Source: Gammaproteobacteria bacterium
GTDB taxonomy: Bacteria; Pseudomonadota; Gammaproteobacteria; UBA6429; Thiohalophilaceae
Length of the DNA: 46,285 nt
Direction of reading: 5' to 3'
Assembly (NCBI GenBank): GCA_030617815.1
Contig: JAUWUS010000008.1
Coordinates: 1 to 46,285 of the forward strand
Shown here: piece after piece, positions 26,921 to 31,898 of the stretch
Position numbering within the stretch: the stretch's first letter is position 1
Layout: the number at the start of each line of letters is the position of its first letter
The notes under the pieces: model-generated
Databases searched by the model: none
Told to the model about the DNA's origin: nothing
The model's input: only the letters and a program-made list of their open reading frames with translations
Program-made: the position numbers and the translations under genes

Positions 26921-28105
26921 CTAAAAATAATAAGCTAACTCAAGCTTAACAAAGTCATCCTGGCGTAATGAATAAAGAAGATTAGCGCTATCATTAAGTC
27001 CCTTAAATAAGCGCGCTTCAAGATTCAGTTTCCAGCTTTCACCTATACGCCGACTGGCTTCAATACTATATAAACGTGAGCTATCATCTCTGTCGGCAAT
27101 TACACCGAATAATACATTTGTGTCATTTTCATCATTAATAGTCCAGCGTAAACCGAGCATAAGATCATCGGCAAAAGGTGTTGTGGCACTATTACCTCGA
27201 TCATCATATAAATATTCCATCACCAAGCCAACATCCGAAGAGCTTTCCAGGATGCCATAAAAAGTATATTCAAAGCCACCGGTTGCTGCCATATAATTAT
27301 CATCCTGCAGGCGTCTATTAATCACTTCCAGTTTCCATAACCAGGCATCTTTAGTCGCTTGTAAATCCAGTCCGGTTTGTTGCATAAGATTGTAAACAGG
27401 TCTTAATACGAGATTGCCGCCCCCGTCTATAGCAACAATAAATAAAGGATCCCGACTTGTACCATTAAAATGACTTAAACCAATATCCCAGTCACCCAAG
27501 CTGTGCGACCAGCGCAGCGCATAATCAATATGCTTTTCTTCATCATCAGATTCATAAAGTGGGTTGTCCGTATCAACAACTAACCCGGTACGTAAACGCC
27601 CGTCTATCCCCGGAAAAGTACGTTCTCGAAAATAAGGCAAAACAAAAAAATCCAGCGTACCCCAATCCTGAATCAAGGCATAATTAATCATGGGTTGTCC
27701 GAGTTTTTCCTCACCATCCAGACTTTCAACCAGATCAGTCTGGTTAATAACATCAACAAGATGTTGTGACTCGGTAACACCCCAAAAAACTTTTCGGATC
27801 CCTACTCTTAATTCAGACTCTGCAAACACTTTTAGCCAGCTTAATTCACGAATATCCAAATGTGTTCGCTTCTCATCATGCTGATCCCAGCGGCTGAAAG
27901 GAACAAAAATAAAGCTTTGTTTGCCTCCATCCCATTCATGAAACCATTCAGGCTGAACAGAAACCGAGCCATACTGCTTAAACTGAGAAGTAGATAAAGC
28001 ATCTTTACTAAATTGAATATATTCTAATGCAACATTACCTGACCACTCATTCGCCCATAATGTTGTTGAACAAACAAACAACGCTAATATTAAAAACTTA
28101 TTCAT
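26921..28105 (-). CDS. Predicted outer-membrane beta-barrel protein of the RND operon
   Basis: 394 residues with a signal peptide (1-18, cleavage after LWA) and no other hydrophobic helix. The body is made of alternating aromatic/polar strands and ends in LELAYYF, a C-terminal phenylalanine typical of BAM-assembled outer-membrane barrels. Repeated segments with WxxxLE/LGLRW patterns suggest porin-like strands. I do not recognise a named family with certainty. Last gene of the tetR-RND-LolA-like operon, 19 nt after the LolA-like gene. Its position suggests the outer-membrane step of an export or lipid-transfer route (inference). Confidence 0.75.
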   Translation of the reverse strand: MNKFLILALFVCSTTLWANEWSGNVALEYIQFSKDALSTSQFKQYGSVSVQPEWFHEWDGGKQSFIFVPFSRWDQHDEKRTHLDIRELSWLKVFAESELRVGIRKVFWGVTESQHLVDVINQTDLVESLDGEEKLGQPMINYALIQDWGTLDFFVLPYFRERTFPGIDGRLRTGLVVDTDNPLYESDDEEKHIDYALRWSHSLGDWDIGLSHFNGTSRDPLFIVAIDGGGNLVLRPVYNLMQQTGLDLQATKDAWLWKLEVINRRLQDDNYMAATGGFEYTFYGILESSSDVGLVMEYLYDDRGNSATTPFADDLMLGLRWTINDENDTNVLFGVIADRDDSSRLYSIEASRRIGESWKLNLEARLFKGLNDSANLLYSLRQDDFVKLELAYYF

Positions 28106-28124
28106 CTTTAAAAACTAATCAGTA

Positions 28125-28904
28125 TTAACGTGCGCGTTTTAAGCTATTGCGATCAAAATCACGACTTTTAAAACCATTTTTAAATTTATAGGATACCCAT
28201 AATAATGTCGTACTTTTTCCCGTTTGGTGATTTACCATTTCCATGCGAGCTGGTCGCCAGTATTTGTTCAGGTACTGTTTATAACCATGCTGAGTTAATG
28301 TTTTCAACAGACTTTTTTTGCGATCATAAAATTCAATTTTTAAGGGTTGATACATTTTTTTATCTAACCAGGTAACCATTTTTGTGTAACCTGATTTTTT
28401 ATATTGTGGATAGCGCTCTATAATAAATGCAGCGAGGCCATTAACTTCACCATCTTTAATAAATTTATATTTATACTTTTCGACTTCTTGCGAAGAAATA
28501 TCTTCATAAGCGAACTCACTACCCATAAAAGGGCCTGACTTATTCGATGATGAAATTCTTTTCACTCTTTTTAAAGCAGGCAAATACAACCATTGCTCAT
28601 CTGCTTTAAGCGCATGAGTGAAGCTTAAAAAAGCAGTACCTTTTATATCCCTCGGCGTATCAAAAATAGTTAATGATTTATCACCATCACCTTTAACTTC
28701 CAGTGTTTTACCACGAATTTCACGCATGCTTTCTGCACCCTGACTATTACGTAAAATCATTTTCATTACTGTTGCCTGATCACTCCAGCCTTGATCTCTT
28801 TTATCCGCTTCTACCGCAATAGCCAGACCTTTTTCCTCCGGTGTTTCAGCCAGCACAGCCCCGGTAAAAGCAACCAAACTAAATAACAATGCTATTCCTT
28901 TCAT
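28125..28904 (-). CDS. LolA-like outer membrane lipoprotein-sorting protein
   Basis: 259 residues, signal peptide 1-19 (cut after VLA). It has the LolA-like fold pattern found next to RND/MMPL exporters: RDQGWSDQATVMKMIL, GKTLEVKGDGDKSLTIFDTP, DEQWLYLPALKRVKRISSSNKSG and FMGSEFAYEDI. LolA-like folds carry hydrophobic lipid moieties across the periplasm. The start overlaps the RND stop by four bases (ATGA), showing tight coupling. It is not classical LolA, which lies with ftsK/rarA and is about 200 residues. Substrate unknown. Confidence 0.85.
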   Translation of the reverse strand: MKGIALLFSLVAFTGAVLAETPEEKGLAIAVEADKRDQGWSDQATVMKMILRNSQGAESMREIRGKTLEVKGDGDKSLTIFDTPRDIKGTAFLSFTHALKADEQWLYLPALKRVKRISSSNKSGPFMGSEFAYEDISSQEVEKYKYKFIKDGEVNGLAAFIIERYPQYKKSGYTKMVTWLDKKMYQPLKIEFYDRKKSLLKTLTQHGYKQYLNKYWRPARMEMVNHQTGKSTTLLWVSYKFKNGFKSRDFDRNSLKRAR

Positions 28905-31195
28905 GATTTTTTCTCCAGTTTCATTAACAATGGTGGCAAAAAGAAAAAATCTGCCATCAATGCCAAAACGATAATAATTGACGTTAACATACCCATACCT
29001 GCATTTAATTCAAAGTGTGATTGAGCCAGGACCAGGAACCCGGCAACAAGCACAACGGATGTTGTCAACAACGCTCGTCCAACATGTTTAAATGCATAGC
29101 GCACCGCTTCAGGTGCTGAATAACCATGCTCACGTTTCGCTCGTAAATATTTACTTAAAAAATGCACCGTATCATCAACCACAATACCAAGTGTCATGGA
29201 TGTTACAATTGATAACGCTAAACCAACTTCACCAACAAATAATCCCCATACACCAAACCCCATTGCTGCCGGAACCAGGTTAGGGATAATGCTAACTAAA
29301 CCAATTTTAATTGAACGGAATGCAAAAATTAATATACCCGATATCACTATTAACGCTAAAGTTGTTCCAAGTAACATACTGGATATATTACGTTGCCCAA
29401 TGTTTGCAAACATAATGGTAGGGCCTGAACCCGTTGCCATTTTAATATAATTAGCATTTTTTTCTAACCAGCGTTGCGCGCGTTTTTCTATTTCAATAAT
29501 TTCATTACTTGAAACTGTTTTAATTGATACTGTCATGCGTAATGCTGACTTACTAACATCAAGTTGATTATTAAGATCTAATCCATACGGCAATGACATT
29601 TCATACATTAGTAAATATTGCGCTGATAAATTTCTTTCATCCGGAATTTTATACCAGCTTTTATTATCGCTATGCATGTTTTTATTGAGACGTTTTATAA
29701 TATCTGTAAGAACATTAACATGCCGTGTTTCAGGTTGCTCACGATACCAGTTAGCAAATTTTTCTACTTCTTTGAGATACCCTGGCTCGTTAATGCCACC
29801 TTCTTCTCCACTTTCAAGTGAATAATCTATAACATAAAGCCCGGTTAAATTTTTATCTACATAATCAGAATCAACTCTAAACTGTATCGTTTCATCAAAG
29901 TAATGTACAAAAACATCATTTAGTTGATTTTTAGGCAAGAAGGCAACCAGTGTGATAATTAACGCACCCATGCCCCACATCAGTTGTTTCTTTTTCTTAA
30001 CAACAAAATCGCCCAGCTTAATCATCATTTTATCCTGATCATCTTTTTGCACTTTAACTCTTACCGGTAACACTGATATTAAAGCAGGCAAAAAACTGAC
30101 CGAAAGGAAGAATGAAGCAATGACACCTATAGCAACAAAATTACCTAAATGTTGAAAAGGCGGAACTTCTGAAAAATTCATTGTTAAAAAACCCACCATA
30201 GTCGTTGCACTGGCGAGAAACACTGGCTGTAAATTAATTCGCAATGTTTCACTAATCGCACTATTTTTATCTTTGCCACTTCGCATTTCATGAATAAAGG
30301 TGGTGAGAATATGCACCGAGTTTGCTATCGCAACCGTCAAAATAATTGTTGTTGAAGAAACCGATGGCCCGGTTAATGGAAAACCAATATAACCACCTAA
30401 ACCCATCCCGGTAAGAATCGATAAAAAAATCACCAGTATTGTGCCAAAAGTTGTTGAAAAACTTTTCAACAGAAGTAACAACATCAGAAACATTACCGCA
30501 AAACTAAGCGGCACAAGACTTTTCATGTCACCCTGTGCACTTTCAGCAAAGGCATTATTCATCAACACCATACCGGACAAACGTACTTCAACATCAGGTG
30601 CAAGAAGCCTGATTTCAGCTGCCAGTTTTCTGGCAAACTCAACGACTTCCGGAACTTCTTTTGTTTCATCAAGACGTGGCAATTGAATAGTTGCTGAAAC
30701 CGAGGTGACATGACCAGTTGGAGAAACTAAACGCTGTTTTAATAAAGGTTCATTCGTTGCAATATTTTTTATTTTTTCAAGTTCAGCATTACTTAATTTA
30801 TCCGCTTCACTCACCAGGTCAGCAACAATTAAATCGTCACCTTCAGAATAGGTATGCTGAAAATTAGAAACTGAATCGACTCGAATTGAATAGGGGATTT
30901 GCCAGGCTTTTTCTGTTAACGTTTCAACAACCTTTAATGTTTCGCGGGTAAATACATTGCCATCTTTTGGGCTTAAGATAAAAAGAACATTGTCGTTCCT
31001 TGTGTATGTTTTCTCCAGTTTGTCAAAAGCTTGTAACTGCGGATTATCTTCACTAAAAAATACACGATAATCTGCTTTGAAGACTAAAAACCGGCCTCCA
31101 CTTGCCGCAGCAAAAACAAGCAACAGTGAGAACACAATAATTAACCAGCGGTATTTTATTACCCACGGTCCAAGCTTTGATTCCAGTTCACTCAT
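28901..31195 (-). CDS. RND-superfamily exporter, MMPL/HpnN type
   Basis: Proton-driven inner-membrane transporter of 764 residues. The two-fold plan is clear: TM1 near 15-33, large periplasmic loop (about 50-220), a TM bundle with TVAIANSVHIL (about 286-296), second TM near 405-420, second periplasmic loop (about 430-600) and a bundle containing GIVVDDTVHFL (about 666-676), whose Asp pair is the expected proton relay. It is half the size of AcrB-like pumps and fits the lipid/hopanoid exporter class (MMPL, HpnN). No membrane-fusion protein or TolC is nearby; LolA-like and beta-barrel genes follow instead. Start 46 nt after tetR. Confidence 0.88.
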   Translation of the reverse strand: MSELESKLGPWVIKYRWLIIVFSLLLVFAAASGGRFLVFKADYRVFFSEDNPQLQAFDKLEKTYTRNDNVLFILSPKDGNVFTRETLKVVETLTEKAWQIPYSIRVDSVSNFQHTYSEGDDLIVADLVSEADKLSNAELEKIKNIATNEPLLKQRLVSPTGHVTSVSATIQLPRLDETKEVPEVVEFARKLAAEIRLLAPDVEVRLSGMVLMNNAFAESAQGDMKSLVPLSFAVMFLMLLLLLKSFSTTFGTILVIFLSILTGMGLGGYIGFPLTGPSVSSTTIILTVAIANSVHILTTFIHEMRSGKDKNSAISETLRINLQPVFLASATTMVGFLTMNFSEVPPFQHLGNFVAIGVIASFFLSVSFLPALISVLPVRVKVQKDDQDKMMIKLGDFVVKKKKQLMWGMGALIITLVAFLPKNQLNDVFVHYFDETIQFRVDSDYVDKNLTGLYVIDYSLESGEEGGINEPGYLKEVEKFANWYREQPETRHVNVLTDIIKRLNKNMHSDNKSWYKIPDERNLSAQYLLMYEMSLPYGLDLNNQLDVSKSALRMTVSIKTVSSNEIIEIEKRAQRWLEKNANYIKMATGSGPTIMFANIGQRNISSMLLGTTLALIVISGILIFAFRSIKIGLVSIIPNLVPAAMGFGVWGLFVGEVGLALSIVTSMTLGIVVDDTVHFLSKYLRAKREHGYSAPEAVRYAFKHVGRALLTTSVVLVAGFLVLAQSHFELNAGMGMLTSIIIVLALMADFFFLPPLLMKLEKKS

Positions 31196-31241
31196 AATGA
31201 TACTCCTTGTATCTTTATCTAGCTTAACCAGATAACTTAAT

Positions 31242-31823
31242 CTATTTTTTAATTAACCCGTTCAAAATTAATGCAACAACACCTTTAGCTAATCTTTGCA
31301 ATTCTTCAATGGGATACATGGCAATAAAAAAAGGGGAAGAAAATTTTACTATTGAAGCCTGAACATATGATGCCATTTCATCAATATGCGCAACATCAAA
31401 TTCGCCACTAGCACAGCCTTTTTGCAATATAGCTGTAATAAAATGTTTATCATTTCGTACCTCTTGCTGCACCAGCTCAGGTGCTTTTTGCACAATCACA
31501 TCAACCAGTTCAGACATTTTTGGTTCTTTACTAAACTGGCTATGCATATAATTAAGTATTTCCAGAACAAAAATTTGCAACCGCTCAGCTTCGGTTATAT
31601 CTGCACGGCTTATAATCTCTTTTAAAACCAATTCCCGTCTGCCCATACAACGATCGGCCATCGCCACACCAATCGCCAGCTTATTCTCGTAATAGCGATA
31701 AAGATTTGCCGTTGACATCTCAATGTCGCCCGCAATCTCCGCCATGGTCGTCTTACCAAAACCATAAGTTCGAAAACGGACTTCTGCTGCATCAAGAATT
31801 TGTTTACTAATCTCTTCTGTCAT
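31242..31823 (-). CDS. TetR-family transcriptional regulator of the RND operon
   Basis: 193 residues with an N-terminal TetR helix-turn-helix: EVRFRTYGFGKTTMAEIAGD (about 14-33) and MSTANLYRYYENK. The C-terminal ligand domain is not assignable to a known inducer. First gene of the operon. A perfect 13-bp inverted repeat overlaps its promoter, implying autorepression together with the exporter. Confidence 0.9.
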   Translation of the reverse strand: MTEEISKQILDAAEVRFRTYGFGKTTMAEIAGDIEMSTANLYRYYENKLAIGVAMADRCMGRRELVLKEIISRADITEAERLQIFVLEILNYMHSQFSKEPKMSELVDVIVQKAPELVQQEVRNDKHFITAILQKGCASGEFDVAHIDEMASYVQASIVKFSSPFFIAMYPIEELQRLAKGVVALILNGLIKK

Positions 31824-31851: not shown

Positions 31852-31880
31852 TTTATAGCTTATGAATAATGAATAATCAA
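31852..31880 (-). promoter_or_regulatory. Sigma-70 promoter of the tetR-RND operon
   Basis: Minus strand: -35 TTGATT (31880-31875, 4/6), 17-nt spacer, -10 TATAAA (31857-31852, 5/6). It is overlapped by one arm of the operator-like repeat. Confidence 0.65.
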
Positions 31881-31898
31881 TTTAATATTCATTATTCA
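31863..31898. promoter_or_regulatory. Operator-like perfect inverted repeat at tetR
   Basis: TGAATAATGAATA (31863-31875) and its exact reverse complement TATTCATTATTCA (31886-31898), 10 nt apart. The proximal arm covers the promoter spacer and touches the -35, the classic geometry for TetR repression. Each arm also contains the internal direct repeat GAATAAT. Confidence 0.7.

Follow-up and report, generated by a model that had tools for sequence, protein, structure and literature searches.

It has long been asked by what route lipids, apart from LPS and lipoproteins, arrive at the outer membrane. Gene sets related to the operon described here have been published. The AmeABCD cassette of Castellaniella defragrans combines an HAE3 RND pump, a LolA-superfamily periplasmic protein (a 451-aa full DUF1329 shuttle), a 605-aa DUF1302 outer-membrane barrel and a fourth part, AmeC (COG4447), with no classical membrane-fusion protein or TolC, and its deletion lowers tolerance of hydrophobic monoterpenes and increases Nile Red accumulation (PMC6394551). 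In Thalassolituus oleivorans, TOL_3187 carries two MMPL domains and a LolA-like domain, and the adjoining TOL_3188 is a predicted porin; the pair is known from proteomic induction on the n-C28 alkane, where TOL_3187 was up 42-fold and TOL_3188 was detected solely on this substrate, and was interpreted by its authors as serving alkane uptake (PMC6304351). The same gene series occurs in another phylum, in the P. gingivalis PG1178-1181 operon and in the Prevotella TetR-(ABC-ABC)-MMPL-LolA-DUF1302 operons, some with two ABC genes inserted and with a hypothetical or DUF1302 protein encoded last, and a shortage of iron or hemin induces these operons strongly (PMC10434189, PMC10470040).

Here we describe a further variant of this already published kind of operon, found in a window of 46,285 nucleotides (the whole stretch of DNA analysed) from a gammaproteobacterial contig. 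Four genes follow one another on the minus strand: tetR, the first gene of the operon, for a TetR-family regulator (31242-31823, 193 aa; TetR_N 2.1e-08, TetR_C_27 1.9e-12); a gene for a predicted inner-membrane RND/MMPL pump, HAE3-like and with 12 TM (28901-31195, 764 aa; MMPL 1.6e-37); a gene for a periplasmic protein of the LolA/LolB fold, here termed the shuttle, with a signal peptide and no lipobox (28125-28904, 259 aa; PF17131 3.7e-63); and a gene for a predicted outer-membrane β-barrel with a C-terminal Phe (26921-28105, 394 aa). The TetR and pump genes are separated by 46 bp and the shuttle and barrel genes by 19 bp; the stop of the pump gene and the start of the shuttle gene overlap by the 4 bp ATGA (28901-28904), indicating translational coupling, and the same overlap is present in at least 16 related loci. 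This layout agrees with an earlier note on the sequence, which had given the position and order of the genes and the ATGA overlap and had reported no membrane-fusion protein or TolC. We likewise found no membrane-fusion protein or TolC-type factor in the operon or among the neighbouring ORFs, in contrast to AcrAB-TolC-type tripartite HAE1 pumps, to which both are linked. A convergent DUF2797 gene lies 1 base from the barrel gene, and upstream of tetR are a 101-aa orphan and a tyrosine-recombinase gene (XerC-like, by eye).

Compared with AmeABCD, the operon shares the single cassette of RND pump (here HAE3-like), LolA-superfamily protein and barrel, but it has three transport parts; its PF17131 shuttle has 259 aa and its barrel, which falls below Pfam DUF1302 detection, 394 aa. 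An AmeC-like fourth periplasmic gene was absent from the window cassette and did not recur in related loci. Because it appears to work like AmeABCD but lacks two of its defining features, the DUF1302 barrel and AmeC, we filed the operon as a variant and not as a member. TOL_3187/TOL_3188, which we likened by description, represents the same module with pump and shuttle fused, unlike in the window, and the Prevotella pump shares 22% identity with the pump described here.

The earlier note had called the pump an HpnN/MMPL-type exporter, of which the MMPL part stood and the HpnN part did not. The best NCBIfam model was HAE3 TIGR00921 (178.9 bits, under its 351.9 cut-off), and the protein is MmpL-like rather than AcrB-like in sequence and size. 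The structural model (pLDDT 86.8) had MmpL4/5, HpnN, MmpL3 and NPC1-type proteins as its closest Foldseek matches; VIA-align placed the MmpL/HpnN/NPC1 group level with Patched and AcrB-type pumps (Z 44–46), the rmsd being lower among the MmpL proteins. Identity with HpnN was rejected, the HpnN model scoring 97.8 bits against a cut-off of 751.85 and NF052374 scoring 45 bits against 1100. So was a hopanoid transporter, as the genome (93% complete) gave no SQHop_cyclase_C match and the control was positive in B. subtilis. HpnN, which exports lipids and belongs to the HAE3 branch of RND proteins, has the same fold (Z 43.9, 3.6 Å, 641 residues), but it operates without a barrel or shuttle partner, both of which stand alongside the pump here. 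The closest solved folds, mycobacterial MmpL3/4/5, export lipid or siderophore, but with actinobacterial mycomembrane partners and from operons without a LolA-fold protein or Gram-negative barrel. Within TM10, D674-D675 is invariant in 39 of 39 relatives, and within TM4, H295 is invariant and position 292 is N, D or S; because these residues are conserved, we infer that the pump is driven by protons via the TM10 Asp pair.

The shuttle belongs to PF17131 LolA_like (213 bits, gathering cut-off 30), which it matches far more strongly than DUF1329, also above cut-off (42.2 bits versus 23.1). Its subfamily includes the solved protein PDB 3bk5 (2.8e-95), which scores 415 bits against the profile of the subfamily and is the nearest structural match to P. 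gingivalis LolB and thus lies near LolB as well as LolA (PMC13103446). In one relative (G087), a single 1069-aa frame between the TetR and barrel genes encodes both pump and shuttle. The fusion of the two, there and in TOL_3187, is strong evidence that they function jointly. Elsewhere, a LolA-like domain occurs in an 891-aa protein whose N-terminus resembles a response-regulator receiver (L089:2221-4896, G233:C325).

The last protein, which the earlier note had taken to be a barrel ending in Phe, is confidently predicted to be an outer-membrane barrel. An AlphaFold2 model built with 33 homologues reached pLDDT 90.6 and pTM 0.84 and is porin-like. VIA-align matched it to OccAB3 (Z 23.6, 3.4 Å, 309 residues), to OprD/Occ porins near Z 23 and to AlgE (Z 22.9, 3.1 Å, 301 residues), and Foldseek too returned the porin/AlgE kind, so that the barrel is as similar to diffusion porins as to exporters. 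A signal peptide is present as judged by eye, there is no lipobox, and the homologues end in Phe (32 of 33) or Tyr (1 of 33). The family is unnamed and is marked by a near-invariant KVFWGVTESQHLVDIINQTD..EDKLGQP motif. It falls in no Pfam family, the best hit being a sub-threshold PelB barrel match; Pfam DUF1302 did not match the barrel and reached only one of the 33 homologues, at E 0.093. Since a Prevotella barrel annotated as DUF1302 matches both our family profile over its full length (E 3e-13) and Pfam DUF1302 (1.3e-13), the family is a distant relative of DUF1302. A search for a phage origin of the barrel gave no match.

The four-gene operon is real and widespread far beyond chance, its order, overlap and families being kept in many genomes, as the earlier note had expected. 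A pump-seeded scan of genome contigs yielded 55 loci, of which four, cut inside the pump, were left out; the shuttle adjoins the pump in 50 of the remaining 51, 40 of the roughly 48 that extend far enough have the barrel, and 35 have a TetR. The order differs in Psychromonas (shuttle-barrel-pump). In a shuttle-seeded sample across the class, 26 of 30 loci had the pump and 25 had the barrel. Among 274 gammaproteobacterial genomes, with the shuttle list taken down to about 160 bits and a Fisher test uncorrected for phylogeny, the barrel occurred in 97 and the shuttle subfamily in 92: 92 had both, 5 the barrel alone, none the shuttle alone and 177 neither. The shuttle lies within 3.5 kb of the barrel at 88 of 108 barrel places. 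Distance matrices correlated at 0.90 (pump-shuttle), 0.89 (pump-barrel) and 0.85 (shuttle-barrel), against permutation maxima of at most 0.34, with shared species history contributing to these values. The fusion, the ATGA coupling and this co-evolution indicate that pump, shuttle and barrel form a functional unit, as had been proposed. In the same genus, 7 of 8 genomes showed the barrel or some trace of it, with a patchier distribution across the family. Several loci lack a barrel behind the shuttle and some barrels stand apart from it, so the trio need not be obligate. At four to five loci (L038, L047, L048, L049, L053), the position downstream of the LolA-like gene is occupied by a DUF6701 protein, roughly 1244 aa long, that also carries a laminin-G-like domain. 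On a Pseudoalteromonas plasmid (NZ_CP118497.1, 4805-11926; L107), pump and shuttle genes have gamma-mobile-trio recombinase genes as neighbours and the barrel gene is divergent, possibly a mobile copy of the module.

Upstream of tetR, at 31863-31898 on the minus strand and 40–75 bp from the gene, lies a 36-bp palindrome (TGAATAATGAATATTAAA/TTGATTATTCATTATTCA) that scored better than all 60 mononucleotide shuffles; of 36 upstream regions, 16 have a palindrome of the TGAATA..TATTCA type that beats all its shuffles. It is probably the operator through which tetR regulates itself, and TetR would be the protein that binds it. A genome search with the palindrome core found a single site at one mismatch or fewer, the operon's own, so TetR is probably dedicated to this operon; a search for a wider regulon gave two genome sites at two mismatches, no more than chance. 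The best NCBIfam match of TetR was acyl-CoA-type FadR, below cut-off, a weak lead. In L043 and L046 a LysR regulator takes the place of TetR, and in Kordiimonas a divergent LysR-type gene was seen by eye. The regulator is exchangeable between lineages, and the transport trio is the core. Four loci (L028, L030, L031, L033) have another type of TetR, preceded by a TGACG..CGTCA palindrome that promoter-like hexamers (TTGACA and TATTAT-like) flank, beside a TesA-type esterase gene. In one lineage, a TesA-type esterase gene upstream was considered as an operon member and rejected, as a separate promoter-like stretch precedes tetR.

On balance, we favour as fairly probable that the operon encodes a TetR-inducible, proton-driven, three-part export route that carries a hydrophobic amphiphile from the inner to the outer membrane without a membrane-fusion protein or TolC. 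Bound to the palindrome, TetR would keep its own operon repressed, to be released by a ligand that is perhaps of the fatty-acid type. The RND pump would then extract cargo from the inner membrane's outer leaflet and lift it into its periplasmic domains, using the proton drive of the TM10 Asp pair; the LolA-fold protein, in contact with the pump, might receive the cargo in its hydrophobic groove and ferry or bridge it across the periplasm; and the barrel may insert it into the outer membrane or let it pass through. The loss of monoterpene tolerance and the raised Nile Red accumulation after AmeABCD deletion support outward transport (PMC6394551). Counting against this reading are the absence of linked lipid-synthesis genes from the window, the barrel's equal likeness to diffusion porins, the loci in which barrel and shuttle are not together, and the uptake role that the authors gave to TOL_3187/TOL_3188 (PMC6304351). 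More tentatively, and with some doubt, we suggest that about one-third of gammaproteobacterial genomes encode a self-contained proton-driven lipid exporter of this kind, in which a pump, a soluble shuttle and an OprD/AlgE-type barrel would deliver lipid to the outer membrane or the surface with no continuous tunnel. The operon would name all three stations of such a route, which the solved shuttle relative, the fused pump-shuttle form and the simple regulator make directly testable. It also offers a functional hypothesis for a widespread barrel family without a Pfam entry and for proteins named as lipoprotein-sorting by fold alone.

The main rival, which we judge unlikely, is uptake: the barrel would let in hydrophobic compounds from outside, long-chain alkanes or fatty acids for instance, which the LolA-like protein would then carry inward, and the pump would help pass them on to the inner membrane or remove the excess. 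In its favour, the barrel model matches substrate-uptake Occ porins at Z of about 23, and some relatives adjoin acyl-CoA metabolism genes. RND pumps of the HAE3 branch such as MmpL3 and HpnN are, however, outward movers to the periplasm, which counts against this direction. The induction of TOL_3187 and TOL_3188 on n-C28 alkane also fits uptake (PMC6304351), but induction by a substrate equally fits export of a toxic excess, and the characterized analogue, AmeABCD, behaves as an exporter (PMC6394551).

A second alternative holds that the LolA-like protein is a specialized Lol chaperone that delivers a lipoprotein or helps to assemble the barrel, energized by the RND pump and not by LolCDE. Besides the LolA/LolB fold itself, the NCBI name of PF17131 proteins (lipoprotein-sorting proteins) and the proposal of lipoprotein export for a Borrelia ABC-LolA-like-barrel set (PMC13078400) speak for it. 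The operon, however, contains no lipoprotein gene, as neither shuttle nor barrel has a lipobox, and Lol equivalog models score the shuttle far under cut-off (LolA1_Flavo 15.1 bits against 100, LolA3_fam 12.2 against 83). P. gingivalis LolA3, a relative of the shuttle with a solved structure (9tp6), shows hardly any binding to LolB (PMC13103446), and deletion of the F. johnsoniae protein named LolA3 was without phenotype (PMC11885536), both of which argue against ordinary lipoprotein sorting and leave this reading improbable. Ordinary drug or solvent efflux, in which TetR and the RND pump detoxify and the LolA-like protein and barrel, only loosely connected with them, serve envelope repair, would suit a TetR-first operon with a conserved palindrome, typical of efflux pumps, and a regulator type swapped between lineages, but is very improbable given the functional unit of pump, shuttle and barrel and the MmpL-like pump.

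As for the cargo of the favoured export route, the expected linkage with lipid-synthesis genes was not borne out: none is linked to the operon in the window, and the genes that recur around window-like loci, for the most part housekeeping ones (DUF2797, DUF2333, DNA polymerase IV-like, AccA, TilS, TruD), give no clear hint. Wax-ester synthase, considered as a cargo source, had 0 matches in the genome, but likewise 0 in control genomes, so this absence is uninformative. Several related loci lie beside AMP-ligase and SDR genes, and beside genes judged by eye to be of the acyl-CoA dehydrogenase, CaiB-like or biotin-carboxylase kind. On the Sulfitobacter plasmid NZ_CP085169.1 (L111:10429-27843; L108:6689-12629), a diverged pump (33% identity), shuttle (40%) and barrel are surrounded by genes for a type I PKS, two condensation-domain proteins, GalE and a Mur-ligase-type protein, which may be a glycolipid locus equipped with an export route of its own. 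Other mycobacterial MmpL genes adjoin PKS and acyltransferase genes in lipid loci, a PKS neighbourhood like that of the Sulfitobacter relative. What these hints share is a hydrophobic or amphiphilic small molecule as cargo, probably a different one in different lineages.

Two further arrangements involve PF17131 proteins. In the genome of the window, a second locus (G000:C22:7747-11735, L091) encodes a LolD-like ATPase, an FtsX/MacB permease, a PF17131 protein and a 428-aa barrel-looking protein ending in FF; Borrelia BBJ23-29 is comparable to this ABC version of the scheme (PMC13078400). At two other loci (L090, L092), distant PF17131-RND sets have a 663–792-aa protein between them and lie beside an N-acyl amino acid synthase-type acyltransferase gene (by eye).
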